A stretch of DNA of 49,066 nt from Deinococci bacterium (lineage in GTDB: Bacteria; Deinococcota; Deinococci; Deinococcales; Trueperaceae): NCBI GenBank assembly GCA_030149325.1, contig JASBRS010000034.1, positions 1 through 49,066 on the forward strand, given 5' to 3'. This document shows positions 42,249-47,990 of this stretch, in pieces (the first letter of the stretch is position 1; the number at the start of each line of letters is the position of its first letter). The position numbers were made by a program, and so were the translations under genes. A model generated the notes under the pieces. It did no database searches. It was not told the DNA's origin and saw only the letters and a program-made list of their open reading frames with translations.

Positions 42249-42547
42249 GGGCCGGACGGCGCTCGACCGGGCGGATTGGCCCCGATCTACGGCCCCGCCC
42301 GGCCGAGAGGCGTGGCGTCGCTCGTGTGAACTCGCGGACGGGCCGAACGTGCGTGCTGGACGGCGATCCCAGGATGCGTTTCGAGCGCAGGCGACCGCGC
42401 CGAACCTGTGAGGTTTCCAACAGTCCCGTCCAGGACGGCCGAAACCGGCGCGCGAAGGCTCGTAGATTCAGAGTTCTGTAAGTCGAGCTTGGTTACCCTC
42501 CCCTCAGAAAGAACGAAACCCCCCGCCCAAATTCCGCCCTGGTGGGG
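42249..42547. other. Gene-free stretch upstream of the riboswitch
   Basis: About 300 nt with no convincing ORF. It should hold the promoter of the fibre operon; TACCCT (42494-42499) and TAGATT (42463-42468) are possible -10 boxes, neither with a clear -35. CCGTCC-A-GGACGG (42426-42438) is a short perfect inverted repeat that could be an operator. GC is visibly lower here than in the genes to the left. Confidence 0.4.
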
Positions 42548-42627
42548 GTCCCTTCGGAAGCGATGAAACCTGATCCTGTATTCGGGCGCTTGGGACAGGT
42601 GGAGCTAGTAGCGCGACCGGCCGATCC
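42548..42627 (+). promoter_or_regulatory. c-di-GMP-II riboswitch aptamer
   Basis: The fold matches the class II cyclic-di-GMP riboswitch, compared from memory with the Clostridium acetobutylicum aptamer. P1: TCGG (42554-42557) with CCGA (42621-42624), followed by the conserved GGAA. P2: ACCTGATCC (42568-42576) with GGGACAGGT (42592-42600), eight of nine pairs. Pseudoknot: GCGCT in the P2 loop (42586-42590) with AGCGC (42610-42614). The conserved single-stranded parts CGGGCGCTTG, CTAGTAGCGC and GACCGGCCG correspond to UGGGCACUUG, UUAGUAGUGC and AACCGACCG of the reference. The helices differ in base but keep pairing. The class is known from Clostridia and Deinococcus. It controls the gene starting at 42650. 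Confidence 0.88.
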
Positions 42628-42635
42628 AGCAAGAT

Positions 42636-42644
42636 CCGGAGGGA
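42636..42644 (+). promoter_or_regulatory. Shine-Dalgarno region that can pair with riboswitch P1
   Basis: CCGGAGGGA holds the ribosome binding site (GGAGGG, 42638-42643) of the gene at 42650. It is complementary over 9 contiguous positions, one a G-U pair, to TCCCTTCGG (42549-42557). Bases 42554-42557 of that strand are also the 5' side of aptamer P1, so the two pairings exclude each other. Confidence 0.6.
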
Positions 42645-42649
42645 ACGTC

Positions 42650-43234
42650 ATGAAGAAGAGCATCCTGATCGCAGCTGCAGCACTCCTCCTGGGAACGGTC
42701 GGTATGTCGTTCGCGCAGACGACGGCCGCTCACGATGTGCACGTCAAGATCCCGAGTGTGCTTCGGATCCGGCTGACGACCGCTGCCGGCACCAGCCCGA
42801 TCACGAATGGCGACGTCATGTTTGACTACAGCACCGCTGCCGGCCAGGCCGCGTACGAGACCGCAGTTGCCGGCGGCGGGAACTGGCTCAATCCGGTCGG
42901 TGCCGCCACGACAGGTGAAGTGTCCTTCGGGGACGTCAAAGTCTTCTCGAACTCGGCCAACGCCTGGAAGGTCAACGTTTCGGCGACCGAGTCTGGTACG
43001 TTTGCCCTCGGCAGTGTGCGAGTAACGCCTACCGGTACGATTGGGACAGGCGTCAACGCTCTTCCGGCGCAGTTCACTCTGTCGAGTACTTCGGCTACGA
43101 TCGCCACGGGCGGGAAGACCAAGGGTTGGTCCAGCCTGGGATTCGGCGGAGGTGACTACCAGATCTACGTTGACGGTACCGAGGACCCGGGCACTACCGT
43201 GATCGCTGTGACGTACTCGATTGCCGCTCCCTAA
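42650..43234 (+). CDS. Secreted beta-rich subunit, putative major fibre protein
   Basis: 194 aa; ATG at 42650. A signal peptide (MKKSILIAAAALLLGTVGMS) is cut after FAQ near residue 23. The mature part is one all-beta domain with a regular strand pattern: HDVHVKIPSVLRIRLTTAAG, NGDVMFDYSTAAGQAAYETA, FGDVKVFSNSANAWKVNVSA, and the C-terminal strands DYQIYVDGTEDPG and VIAVTYSIAAP. It has no cysteine. The same pattern appears twice in the third gene of the operon. I do not recognise a named family; by size, export and context it looks like a pilin-like subunit. It is directly under the c-di-GMP-II riboswitch. Confidence 0.7.
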   Translation: MKKSILIAAAALLLGTVGMSFAQTTAAHDVHVKIPSVLRIRLTTAAGTSPITNGDVMFDYSTAAGQAAYETAVAGGGNWLNPVGAATTGEVSFGDVKVFSNSANAWKVNVSATESGTFALGSVRVTPTGTIGTGVNALPAQFTLSSTSATIATGGKTKGWSSLGFGGGDYQIYVDGTEDPGTTVIAVTYSIAAP

Positions 43235-43255: not shown

Positions 43256-44026
43256 TTGAAGCGAACCGCCTTACTAGCCACGACTCTGCTGGCATCGCTG
43301 ATATCCGTCGCACTTGCGACGGATATCGGCGTTTCACCTCCGCGCCTGAATATCGAGGCTGTTCCAGGCCAGACTGTGACAGAGACGGTTTCGGTGTTTT
43401 CGTCGGGAGCGGACGCGGCCGCCATATCGGTATCGAAGTCGGACTTTTCGCTTGGGTTGAACGGCGACCTGAACGTGTTTACGGCGGGTACCCTGCAATA
43501 CAGCGCAGCTGACTGGATTCGCGTTGATACGGACGGCTTCACCCTACAAGCGGGGAAATCCCAAGCTGTGCGCGTTTCAGTGACAGTGCCTGAGAACGCC
43601 CATGCTGCCGGGACGTACAACGAGTTGGTCTTCTTCACCATCAACCCCGGTGAGCCACCCAAGTCGAGCGTAGGAATCGTCCCGACCACGCGAATTGGCG
43701 TTGTCGTTTACGTAACGGTGTCGGGCACTGAGCAGAATTCTTCGAGGCTTGCTGACATGTACGCTAGCGGCTCCGTTGTGCATGTCATCGTCGACAACCT
43801 TGGCAATACCCTGATGCGTGGTGTCGGAACGATAGACGTCCGCGATTCAGCGGGAAACACGGTGAAGACAGTTGCCGTCGAAGATGCTCCTATCCTTCGC
43901 AATGGTGAGAGGGACATTGCCGTACAGATGCCGGATCTCGCGAAGGGGTACTACGTCCTGCTCCTGCTTCTTCATGACTCTCGTGGTGGATTGCTGACTG
44001 GACAACTGCCCTACGAGGTGAAGTAG
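43256..44026 (+). CDS. Periplasmic Ig-like protein, putative fibre-assembly chaperone (PapD-like)
   Basis: 256 aa. The start is TTG at 43256 (AAGG upstream), 21 nt after the preceding gene. A signal peptide (RTALLATTLLASLISVALA) is cut near residue 22. Two Ig-like beta domains follow. The first (about 23-135) begins IGVSPPRLNIEAVPGQTVTE, with an Arg placed like Arg8 of PapD, and runs to LVFFTINPG. The second (about 145-256) includes VVHVIVDNLGNTLMRGVGTI and ends GLLTGQLPYEVK. PapD-type chaperones hold pilus subunits in the periplasm; here the match is by fold pattern only. Weaker alternatives are a DUF916-like surface protein. Its stop shares one base with the next start (TAGTG). Confidence 0.6.
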   Translation: MKRTALLATTLLASLISVALATDIGVSPPRLNIEAVPGQTVTETVSVFSSGADAAAISVSKSDFSLGLNGDLNVFTAGTLQYSAADWIRVDTDGFTLQAGKSQAVRVSVTVPENAHAAGTYNELVFFTINPGEPPKSSVGIVPTTRIGVVVYVTVSGTEQNSSRLADMYASGSVVHVIVDNLGNTLMRGVGTIDVRDSAGNTVKTVAVEDAPILRNGERDIAVQMPDLAKGYYVLLLLLHDSRGGLLTGQLPYEVK

Positions 44027-44982
44027 TGCGCTGCCATCGCGTTTCGTTGGTTGCCATTGCACTCGGACTCGCCAGCGTTGTCGTTGCGCAGACGATCCAC
44101 TGCGTGCCCCCCAAGGACTGCAGCAACGGCGTGCAGTTCCTTCCGACCCAAGCTGAGTACGCGGCGGCTGTTGGCGGTACGCTGAGTTCGACCAGCCCCA
44201 CCACGCCGATCGCCTTTCAGGTGCTGCAGGACAAGAGCAACGCCTACAGCTTGGAGGTCTCGCGGAGCCCATGGTCGTCTTCCATGGGGATGACCCTTGA
44301 GGCCCGCATCACGCTTTCGGGTCCGAAGACCTCTACGACAGTTCTGGACTGGGCGCCCGTCTCCACCGTACCGGCGACGCTCTTCACCCACGACGTCAAC
44401 AAGACCGACGTCGCCGTTGAGTACCGGATCGGCATCGACGGGAGGGAGTTGCCGGGCACCTACACGACGACCGTGACATTCCGCGCCTGGGACGCCAACG
44501 GACCGAAGCACCAGGGGAAGAAGGTCCGGGATACGATCTCAACCGCCATCACCGTGACCATCCCCGCCTACCTATCGCTCCTCCTCGATGGCGTGCCCGT
44601 CGGCCAGACGGCGAGTGTCGACTTCGAGTACACCCCCTCGAATCTCGTGGCCTACCTCCAGGCCGTACAGACGGGTGCACTCCTGCCGATGACCAAAGCC
44701 AGCTTCAGTCGCCTGGCGATTTCCACGAACAACCCCACCGGTTACCGGGTCAAGGTATCCATCGTCGAGGCTGCCGGGCCGGCAGCGTCGACCCTGGATG
44801 CCTCCGACATCCGCCTGTTCGGGGGAGTACAGGCCAACGGCTACGTCTTCAGCAGCTCGTCGGCGACCGACGGCTACGTCACTTTGCTGGCACCCTCTGA
44901 TTTCGGCCTCCACGTCGATGGCGGCGAAGCGGCGGGGGCCTACACCTTTACGGCCACGTACGTTGCGCAGCCCAACCCCTGA
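44026..44982 (+). CDS. Secreted two-domain protein, putative fibre tip adhesin
   Basis: 318 aa; GTG start at 44026 overlapping the previous stop (TAGTG). The signal peptide (VSLVAIALGLASVVVAQ) is cut near residue 22. The mature protein has two tandem beta domains that share the pattern of the operon's first protein. The N-terminal copy (about 23-165) has a Cys pair (HCVPPKDCSNG) and ends YRIGIDGRELPGTYTTTVTF. The C-terminal copy (about 175-318) begins ITVTIPAYLSLLLDGVPVGQ, then SVDFEYTPSNLVAYLQAVQT, and ends DFGLHVDGGEAAGAYTFTAT. One single-domain subunit plus one two-domain subunit is the usual make-up of chaperone-usher fibres, in which the two-domain member sits at the tip. Confidence 0.62.
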   Translation: MRCHRVSLVAIALGLASVVVAQTIHCVPPKDCSNGVQFLPTQAEYAAAVGGTLSSTSPTTPIAFQVLQDKSNAYSLEVSRSPWSSSMGMTLEARITLSGPKTSTTVLDWAPVSTVPATLFTHDVNKTDVAVEYRIGIDGRELPGTYTTTVTFRAWDANGPKHQGKKVRDTISTAITVTIPAYLSLLLDGVPVGQTASVDFEYTPSNLVAYLQAVQTGALLPMTKASFSRLAISTNNPTGYRVKVSIVEAAGPAASTLDASDIRLFGGVQANGYVFSSSSATDGYVTLLAPSDFGLHVDGGEAAGAYTFTATYVAQPNP

Positions 44983-45002: not shown

Positions 45003-45016
45003 CCCCGATCACGGGG
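45003..45016. terminator. Short hairpin between convergent genes
   Basis: CCCCG-ATCA-CGGGG, overlapping the 3' end of the usher-like gene and 20 nt after the adhesin-like gene. The preceding CCCTTTGACAG is not a U tract, so termination is uncertain. Confidence 0.35.
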
Positions 45017-47957
45017 CGATCACACGGAACCGGACCTCGCCCTTCAATGTACGGCCGTCTTCGGTCGTGACCGCATAGCCGGCCGTGAAGGTTTCCGGAG
45101 ATGCACTGCTGGGGAGCTGGAGTTCGGCGGTCCAACGGCCCGGCTCCGTCTCGCTGGCAAGAACCCGACCCCCGAACGGCGATGTGATTTCAACCTTAGA
45201 GGCCTGTAGGTATACGACCAGGCTCAGGTCCTGCATGGCACCGGGTTTGCCGATTCCAAGCGCCTTCGCTTCGACAACGGCCGCCGAGGGATCGATGACC
45301 AGCTGACCGTCGCGACTTGACGACGTTGACCTGGACGTCGCCACGATCTGGAAGCGCAGTACGCCACTCTTGGCGTCGCGGGGCACGGGGACCCTACCCA
45401 CCCAATCGCCGGCGGAGGCCGTCAGCGGGCGCTCCGTGCCATCAATGATCACGTTCACGGTGTCGGCGTGACCCTGGACCTTCACGGTCACCAGGGGAGC
45501 CGCCCCCGGTGGCGCCTTGTTGATTTCGGTTTCGACCGAGCGGATGCGGAAGCTGCTGGCTCCGAACACCGGCGCGCTGACGGCCACGGGCTGCACAAGG
45601 AAGGTGATATGCCGAACCTGACCGGCCTCGAGCTGGACCGTGCGCGTGTCGCTTCCCTCGGCCCGGAAACCCAGGGGCAGGTTCGACAACTTCAGCGTCG
45701 CGCGGCCCGGCACGAGCCCGCGCGCCACGAAGCCCCCGTTGGCGTCCAACGTGAGAGCCCGCGGGCTTACCGAGGCAGTGGTCAGAAGGATCGTCCCGCC
45801 TCCGGAGCGTGGTGGCACGTCGGGCGTCCCATTACCGTCGCTGTCCAGGAGCACGCTGCCGGTGAGGCCCGCGGACGCCACCACGGGGAATTCGACCTTG
45901 GCTGTTTGCCGCTCGGCCAGCGTGATGGCGCGGTCCGTCCCGCCCTCGACCTGGTACTGGATGGGAAGGGTCGAGAGCTCGAGACCGAGCCTGATGTCGC
46001 CCGGGGGGAGCCGGACGTGGAAGCGGCCGTGCTCGTCGGTACGGACCCGGTACGAGCCGACGCGGACGGTGACGTCGGGGATTCCTGTCTTCCCGGCATG
46101 GACGTAGCCATTGATCGTCCCTAGCTTCCGCCCGCCAGTGGCGCTGACGACGTTCTCCGGGACGTCCAGGTCGAAGGCCAAGTGTCCGGTGAGGCCGAAC
46201 CCGAAGCTGAGGGCAGCCGTGATCGTGTCGAGGCCGGCGTCACCGCTGACCTGTACGCTCCACGGTCCACCGTCCCACGAGAGGGCGCTGCCGATCCCGA
46301 GGGTCTGCTGCGTCAGGTCCCAGCCGGTGCTAACGCTCACGGCGGCCGGCCCGAAGCCGGCGGCGTAGCGCGCGGCCACGCGACCGGTGACGCTGCCGTC
46401 GCTCGGGGTGTACACCAGGTCGGCGTCGGCCCCCAGGGTGTTGCCGGGGCCCGCGACGTACGTCCAGGAGGTCGAACCGCGGATGCCCAAAGGTCCGCTA
46501 ACGGTGGTGATCCCCAGGCTGTCGGCGGTCTGCCAACCGCCGTCCAGGACGGCGGCGTAGCCGAGCGCGGCGAAGCTCTCGTCGGTCCCGCCCTGCAGCT
46601 TGAGGTACAGGCTTCCTGCGATGGGGACGGGCAGCCGGAGCACGGTGCCGGTCTTGGCGGACCCCGTGGCCTGCGAGCCGATCGGGGCGGTCACGCTGCC
46701 GTAGAGGCTGGCGAGCCGGTCGGCGTACCCGACTGCGAACTGGAGTGTGCCGGTGTCGGTCAAGAGTCGCGAGGCACCTACCGACACAGTGGCGGTCCCG
46801 TGCGTGCCGGGATCGCGCTGACGGGCGCTTGCCGACCCCGACAGCGAGCCATCCAGCAACGTCGCCGTGGCCTGCCACCCGCTCTGCTCGTGGTCCTGAC
46901 GGGCCGTCGCGGTCGCCATCGGCGCTCCCGCGTGCAGGCCGACGGCCCCCGAGTACGTGGTGTGCTCGTCCTTGCGGCCCCCGAACGCGTACCCGGAGAA
47001 GCGGTCGGCGCCGACCCAGGTCGCGCCGCCGCCCGCCGCCCACGGCCCGTCCTTGTAGCCGCCCAGGACCCCGAGCTCGCTGGGCAGCGCCAACCCCAGC
47101 GGAGGGCTTCCGAGCGCTCCGACCGATGCCAACCACCCCGGCGCGTCCAGCGACAGCGAGCTCGAGCCCAACCGGTCGCCGTACAGCAATCCCGTCGTTG
47201 TCAGATAGTCCGACAGCGACCCCTGCATCCGGACCGAGAATCCCCAGCTCCCGTTGGTGTCGATCGAGCCGCCAACGTCGGCGTGCAGCAGGATCGGAGG
47301 CGGGGCCGGCACGCCCTCCTGCACGACCCTCGTGAGCGCACGGGCGCGTGTCTGCCCGTCGACCACGAAGGCCGCTTCGTAGGTGCCTGCAACCGTCGCG
47401 GCCACCGTGATCGCCTTGCGCTCGCTCGGCCCGAGCGTGACCTTCCGGTCGAGCACGCCCTTGCCGTTCTGCGTCACCTGGAAGCTACCGGTCTCCTCGA
47501 CGTTCCCCTGGTTGACCAGCGTGAACGTGATGCCGCCGGCCGACACCGGCACCGATGACGGCGCTTGGATCGCTAGCCCGCGCTTCTCGCCGATCGTCAC
47601 GTGCACCGTGCCCTCACCGCGGGCGCCGCCCAGCGTCACCGTGAGCGTGACCTGGTCGACGGTCAACGCCGGCGCGTCGGCGGGGATCTCCACCGTGGCC
47701 GCCACCGGCGCGGCCACCCCGGCCGTCAGGTCCAGCGTTGGCGGCGGCGCCAGCAGCGGATAGCCGTGCTGCGAGGTGATCTCGACCTGGGCCTGGCCGG
47801 ACGTCGGGCTGGTGACCACGTACACGAGCGTCACGAACGCGCCCGGCAGCGCCAGCCGGTCGGCGGGCGCACGCACGGCCATCGACCCCGCCTGCGCCAG
47901 CGCTGCCCCGCTGAGGAGTGTGGCGAGCAGGCAGGCGAAGGTCGTGGCGAGTCTCAT
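45009..47957 (-). CDS. Large outer-membrane barrel protein, putative usher of the fibre system
   Basis: 982 aa from the ATG at 47957, preceded by GGAGGG; a GTG at 47978 in frame is the alternative. A signal peptide (RLATTFACLLATLLSGAALA) is cut near residue 22. Residues 23-235 form two beta-sandwich domains (LALPGAFVTLVYVVTSPTSG, then SSVPVSAGGITFTLVNQGN). Residues 240-610 are alternating Gly-rich amphipathic strands of a large barrel (SWGFSVRMQGSLSDYLTTT, TYSGAVGLHAGAPMATAT). Residues 620-989 hold further beta domains, including a carboxypeptidase-regulatory-like one (INGYVHAGKTGIPDVTVRVG). This order (periplasmic domain, barrel, C-terminal domains) is that of ushers, but I see no direct PapC similarity. 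It is convergent with the fibre operon. Confidence 0.6.
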   Translation of the reverse strand: MRLATTFACLLATLLSGAALAQAGSMAVRAPADRLALPGAFVTLVYVVTSPTSGQAQVEITSQHGYPLLAPPPTLDLTAGVAAPVAATVEIPADAPALTVDQVTLTVTLGGARGEGTVHVTIGEKRGLAIQAPSSVPVSAGGITFTLVNQGNVEETGSFQVTQNGKGVLDRKVTLGPSERKAITVAATVAGTYEAAFVVDGQTRARALTRVVQEGVPAPPPILLHADVGGSIDTNGSWGFSVRMQGSLSDYLTTTGLLYGDRLGSSSLSLDAPGWLASVGALGSPPLGLALPSELGVLGGYKDGPWAAGGGATWVGADRFSGYAFGGRKDEHTTYSGAVGLHAGAPMATATARQDHEQSGWQATATLLDGSLSGSASARQRDPGTHGTATVSVGASRLLTDTGTLQFAVGYADRLASLYGSVTAPIGSQATGSAKTGTVLRLPVPIAGSLYLKLQGGTDESFAALGYAAVLDGGWQTADSLGITTVSGPLGIRGSTSWTYVAGPGNTLGADADLVYTPSDGSVTGRVAARYAAGFGPAAVSVSTGWDLTQQTLGIGSALSWDGGPWSVQVSGDAGLDTITAALSFGFGLTGHLAFDLDVPENVVSATGGRKLGTINGYVHAGKTGIPDVTVRVGSYRVRTDEHGRFHVRLPPGDIRLGLELSTLPIQYQVEGGTDRAITLAERQTAKVEFPVVASAGLTGSVLLDSDGNGTPDVPPRSGGGTILLTTASVSPRALTLDANGGFVARGLVPGRATLKLSNLPLGFRAEGSDTRTVQLEAGQVRHITFLVQPVAVSAPVFGASSFRIRSVETEINKAPPGAAPLVTVKVQGHADTVNVIIDGTERPLTASAGDWVGRVPVPRDAKSGVLRFQIVATSRSTSSSRDGQLVIDPSAAVVEAKALGIGKPGAMQDLSLVVYLQASKVEITSPFGGRVLASETEPGRWTAELQLPSSASPETFTAGYAVTTEDGRTLKGEVRFRVIAP

Positions 47958-47990
47958 CTGCAGGGGGCCCTCCGGCACGCGGTCGATGCC

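Follow-up and report, generated by a model that had tools for sequence, protein, structure and literature searches.

Organization of the locus

We analysed a stretch of 49,066 nucleotides (hereafter the window) from the genome of a Deinococci bacterium of the family Trueperaceae (GCA_030149325.1, contig JASBRS010000034.1; 3.04 Mb in 102 contigs, about 97% complete). On its forward strand, a riboswitch aptamer of the c-di-GMP-II family (42547-42631) is followed by three close-set genes, all of which apparently encode signal peptides. Gene 1 (42650-43234), whose ATG lies 18 nt downstream of the aptamer, encodes a secreted subunit-like protein of 194 amino acids. Gene 2 (43256-44026) encodes a periplasmic chaperone-like protein of 256 amino acids, and its stop overlaps the start of gene 3 (44026-44982) at 44026. 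The gene 3 product, a secreted protein of 318 amino acids, gave a weak pilin-domain match below the cut-off. Convergent to the operon, a reverse-strand gene (45009-47978) encodes a secreted protein of 989 amino acids with a repetitive middle part and a sub-cutoff carboxypeptidase-regulatory-like match. This protein is a possible outer-membrane partner of the operon; it matched no usher family. An initial annotation of the sequence had placed the aptamer in front of a secreted-protein operon, which is borne out by the short distance to the start codon and by relatives that carry the same RNA family before homologous genes.

The AlphaFold2 model of the gene 2 protein (pLDDT 90) matched the WxLIP structure 9i1y in Foldseek (E 7.6e-12) as well as the chaperones CsuC, FimC and Caf1M (E about 1e-9), and a sequence profile search also ranked WxLIP first (E 0.0036). 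For gene 1, weak pilin-like fold matches were obtained (E 3e-3). Gene 2 is accordingly modelled as a chaperone of predicted PapD/WxLIP fold, and our best guess for the operon is a pilus- or WxL-like surface assembly, a label that would make the earlier one more specific.

A GAG-type pocket in a c-di-GMP-II aptamer

When the whole window was searched with 4227 Rfam families (cmscan), RF01786 (c-di-GMP-II) matched over its full model length at 42547-42631 (+) with 60.1 bits (E 5.5e-11), above its gathering score of 53.5 bits. This confirms the window element as a c-di-GMP-II family riboswitch. The initial annotation had proposed this identity for 42548-42627, boundaries that differ by a few bases, and had suggested the RF01786 covariance model as its check, which the aptamer passed.

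The predicted fold comprises P1 (42554-42557 with 42621-42624), an inner helix (42559-42561 with 42604-42606), a hairpin stem (42568-42576 with 42593-42600, one bulged A at 42573) and a pseudoknot in which GCGCU (42586-42590) pairs with AGCGC (42610-42614). The pseudoknot is the one described before, and its pairing is kept in relatives. Among the paired elements that had been listed, the two inner helices hold with standard pairs throughout, but P1 amounts to just four contiguous pairs, the next four positions being mismatched without exception, and is shorter than in most relatives. The three conserved single-stranded blocks had been described as matching, but one exchange had been overlooked: the invariant pocket base A69 is G (42615), in combination with a U37 to C change (42583).

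Pocket positions are numbered here after the crystal structure 3Q3Z (model column + 1), in which the ligand-contacting residues include U37, A69, A70 and G73 (PMC7288161). The window aptamer has C37, G69, A70 and G73 and lacks the canonical U37-A69 pair, which the RF01786 cut-off does not demand. Two further models of the clan also scored above their cut-offs, RF03169 (c-di-GMP-II-GAG) with 57.1 bits (cut-off 40) and RF03170 (c-di-GMP-II-GCG) with 50.5 bits (cut-off 47.9), so that RF01786 ranks first of the three. We take the name GAG to denote residues 69, 70 and 73 (G69-A70-G73) and, likewise, GCG to denote C70. This reading of the names and the contact geometry of U37-A69 draw in part on the RF03169 consensus, PMC7288161 and PMC9495366. 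Judged by its sequence, the window element is a GAG-type pocket inside a main-family (RF01786) body.

To our knowledge, the ligand of c-di-GMP-II-GAG RNAs has never been proven, and Weinberg et al. reportedly proposed in 2017 that these RNAs might sense a different signal. With a pocket of the GAG type, c-di-GMP as the ligand in the window must be inferred and is not given by the family name.

Copies in the genome and the family

The window genome holds seven RF01786 matches, all above the cut-off and including two tandem pairs. Within the family, 34 of the 39 genomes carry the element, with up to 21 copies per genome, and elements of the same kind occur on contigs named 'Trueperaceae bacterium' and 'Deinococcales bacterium'.

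Several of these copies are worth recording in their own right. One copy of the window genome (G000:C40:2760-2843; L003 1501-1584, reverse strand), which is the upstream one of two tandem aptamers preceding the gene for a related secreted subunit, keeps A69 and has C in place of A70 (GCACCC), an A-C-G combination that fits neither the GAG nor the GCG type. Copies with C70 also occur in G025 and G026 (L178 71-153 and L185 2542-2639). These two genomes hold 17 to 21 c-di-GMP-II copies each, many of them before lipoprotein genes; in two cases (L215, L228) the gene that follows is N-methylated pilin-like. At another locus of the window genome (G000:C85:67192-67459; L002, L004), tandem canonical aptamers precede the gene for a lipoprotein that has an FGAFTYGG motif, and similar tandem pairs stand before the same type of lipoprotein gene in many genomes of the family.

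Positions 37 and 69 covary

Among 158 classified copies we found 136 with U37-A69, 20 with C37-G69, one with U37-G69, one with G37-G69 and none with C37-A69. For the four U/C-A/G cells, Fisher's test gave p = 2e-24 with the relatedness of the copies ignored; some of the G69 copies had been fetched with a pattern that fixed G69 and set no condition on position 37. We then scanned 111 genomes of the phylum with a degenerate pattern that admitted each of the four combinations. All of the matches listed were T..A or C..G, and T..G (U37-G69) alone gave no match in these genomes within the tested pattern. Many genome-wide pattern matches are due to chance, and those kept were confirmed by covariance models. 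U37-A69 and C37-G69 replace each other with hardly any intermediates; the two bases change together, and the Watson-Crick pair is retained.

GAG-type copies are present in Trueperaceae, 'Thermaceae' MAGs, Rubrobacteraceae and Acetomicrobium hydrogeniformans. Rubrobacteraceae contigs (L039, L053, L105) carry several copies of the c-di-GMP-II family, some of the GAG type; in two of the copies, position 37 holds an unusual base. GAG-type copies of the 'Thermaceae' MAGs (L040, L052, L057, L128, L361-L366) stand before a recurrent family of proteins starting with MAIFGNL, an association that differs from that with secreted subunits.

The same genes lie behind both pocket types

Homologues of gene 1 were found in nine genomes, that of the window included. 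The eight others (G008, G009, G013, G014, G024, G025, G026 and G027) have a c-di-GMP-II aptamer in front of the homologue or of the cluster that contains it, with canonical U37-A69 wherever it was classified; the G008 aptamer was missed by the classifier, and its sequence as printed reads U37 and A69. An additional homologue in G024 (C44) is without an aptamer. Both pocket types occur within one Thermus-like family (f5/g30), where the subunit gene stands behind a canonical aptamer in five genomes (G083, G087, G088, G091, G106) and behind a GAG aptamer in three (G086, G096 and G103, the G103 gene reading frameshifted). The same gene is also preceded by a GAG aptamer in G110, from a genus neighbouring g30. 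Where they share a hairpin stem, the GAG and canonical aptamers of f5/g30 reach an identity of about 0.85-0.9.

On a tree of the subunit proteins, four changes of pocket state are needed, at least three of which are forced by well-supported branches; since this tree joins two remote families and includes one very long branch, the contrasts within families weigh more than the total number of changes. The core of the window aptamer is identical at 70 of 71 positions to a GAG leader that precedes an unrelated lipoprotein gene in G030, so that the window leader may not always have been with its operon. Transfer of a ready-made leader, or a fusion, is the likely origin suggested by this near-identity. 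We do not claim that both pocket bases changed in place at this locus.

Since genes of one kind are preceded now by one pocket, now by the other, a single ligand fits best. These gene contexts suggest that GAG and canonical aptamers are interchangeable, most simply because both would sense c-di-GMP.

A predicted Shine-Dalgarno-sequestering expression platform

In the minimum-energy fold of 42530-42680, an anti-Shine-Dalgarno strand UCCCUUCGGA (42549-42558, +), overlapping the P1 5' strand, pairs with UCCGGAGGGA (42635-42644, +) and thereby hides the Shine-Dalgarno sequence GGAGG (42638-42642); 10 pairs are possible between the two strands. This helix also formed in folds that began at 42530 and ended anywhere from 42645 to 42720. 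With the 5' end moved to 42490, the Shine-Dalgarno sequence paired differently, and the predicted folds depend on the assumed transcript start. Comparable Shine-Dalgarno pairing was found in related leaders with short spacers, several of which bury the site in their own minimum-energy fold. Compared with shuffled sequences, the duplex energies of single leaders gave modest z-scores (-1.2 for the window), because GC-rich shuffles also pair well. As MAFFT misplaced the Shine-Dalgarno sequence of pilus-type leaders in the leader alignment, we make no formal claim of covariation for this helix.

P1 and the Shine-Dalgarno helix use the same strand and are mutually exclusive; ligand binding should therefore free the ribosome site, as in a translational ON switch. 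In the unbound RNA, 42549-42558 (the P1 5' strand together with its flank) would pair with 42635-42644 and hide the Shine-Dalgarno sequence. Binding would stabilise P1 and the pseudoknot, withdraw the strand and open the site, so that rising c-di-GMP would turn on translation of the pilus- or WxL-like operon. The surface structure would then be made at high c-di-GMP, which we infer to be the role of the switch. We hold it to be probable that the element is a translational c-di-GMP-II family riboswitch with a GAG pocket, which most likely turns the operon on when c-di-GMP rises. The interpretation first given for the locus is thus supported in refined form, with a GAG-type pocket and a Shine-Dalgarno-sequestering platform.

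Alternative readings

An altered pocket might mean an altered ligand, such as c-AMP-GMP, c-di-AMP, pGpG or another dinucleotide. Positions 37 and 69 belong to the ligand contacts in 3Q3Z (PMC7288161), Rfam keeps the GAG RNAs as a separate family, and in c-di-GMP-I riboswitches one pocket change moves the specificity to c-AMP-GMP (PMC9481103). In the window, however, two bases have changed jointly with their Watson-Crick pair kept, and aptamers of both types precede homologous genes in sister genomes. The supply of signals in the window genome adds to this. Its 19 GGDEF domains all retain Asp in the GHxxGD region, where Hypr c-AMP-GMP synthases have Ser, and none of them showed the Hypr signature. 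Neither a SMODS synthase nor a PilZ receptor domain was found in this genome, which is about 97% complete, so that their absence is not proof. The search for c-AMP-GMP synthesis by way of SMODS and Hypr-type GGDEF domains gave no candidate; one DAC domain is present and keeps c-di-AMP in play as far as signal supply is concerned. Taken together, we judge a changed ligand unlikely. If true, it would mean that one genome reads two signals through near-identical aptamers and that a pilus-like operon is under the second of them. It is also very improbable that the window copy is decaying and has lost its ability to switch: P1 is short and the score is the second lowest of the genome's seven copies, but the pseudoknot, the core blocks and the helices other than P1 are all preserved, the change in the pocket is a compensated one and the spacing to the Shine-Dalgarno sequence is kept.

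The direction of switching could be the reverse, with translation lowered by ligand binding. When the aptamer fold was forced in a constrained model, the probability that the Shine-Dalgarno sequence is unpaired rose just from 0.26 to 0.36, and the site still paired mostly with downstream sequence. Against such an OFF switch, the unliganded minimum-energy fold hides the site by means of the P1 5' strand, similar pairing is predicted for several short-spacer relatives, and riboswitches of class II tend to turn expression on (PMC9495366); we hold lowered translation to be highly improbable. Control by transcription termination has a precedent in the class II switch of C. difficile, which acts on transcription in vitro (PMC9495366). 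No terminator-like hairpin was found between 42547 and 42650, from the aptamer to the ATG, and the start codon lies 18 nt after the aptamer; terminator-based control was rejected and seems to us extremely improbable.

Significance and comparison with known systems

Taken singly, the window aptamer is an ordinary piece of riboswitch biology from a lineage that has been little studied, and the comparative result is the more useful one. The recurrent, compensated exchange of U-A for C-G in the pocket before homologous genes argues for an unchanged ligand, and on these sequence comparisons GAG RNAs probably still sense c-di-GMP in this lineage. The near-matched natural pairs of aptamers offer tests of whether c-di-GMP-II-GAG RNAs do so. 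Secreted and surface proteins appear to be the targets of many c-di-GMP-II riboswitches in the lineage (seven in this genome, up to 21 in others).

With chaperone-usher pili (Csu, Caf1, type 1) and WxL/WxLIP clusters, the operon shares the predicted chaperone fold of gene 2, at about 12% identity and with TM-scores near 0.5; the pilin matches of gene 1 are weak. The aptamer exceeds the cut-off of c-di-GMP-II-GCG (RF03170), but this is its lowest-scoring model of the three, and the window has A70. It has G40-C68 where the c-di-GMP-II-GAG (RF03169) consensus has U40-A68 and scores higher with RF01786, but shares C37 and G69-A70-G73 with that consensus (CGG..GAGACCG). From c-di-GMP-II (RF01786) it differs by C37-G69 instead of U37-A69, by a very short P1 and by a predicted Shine-Dalgarno-sequestering arrangement in place of a terminator or ribozyme; it matches the model over its full length and shares the two inner helices, the pseudoknot and the core blocks.
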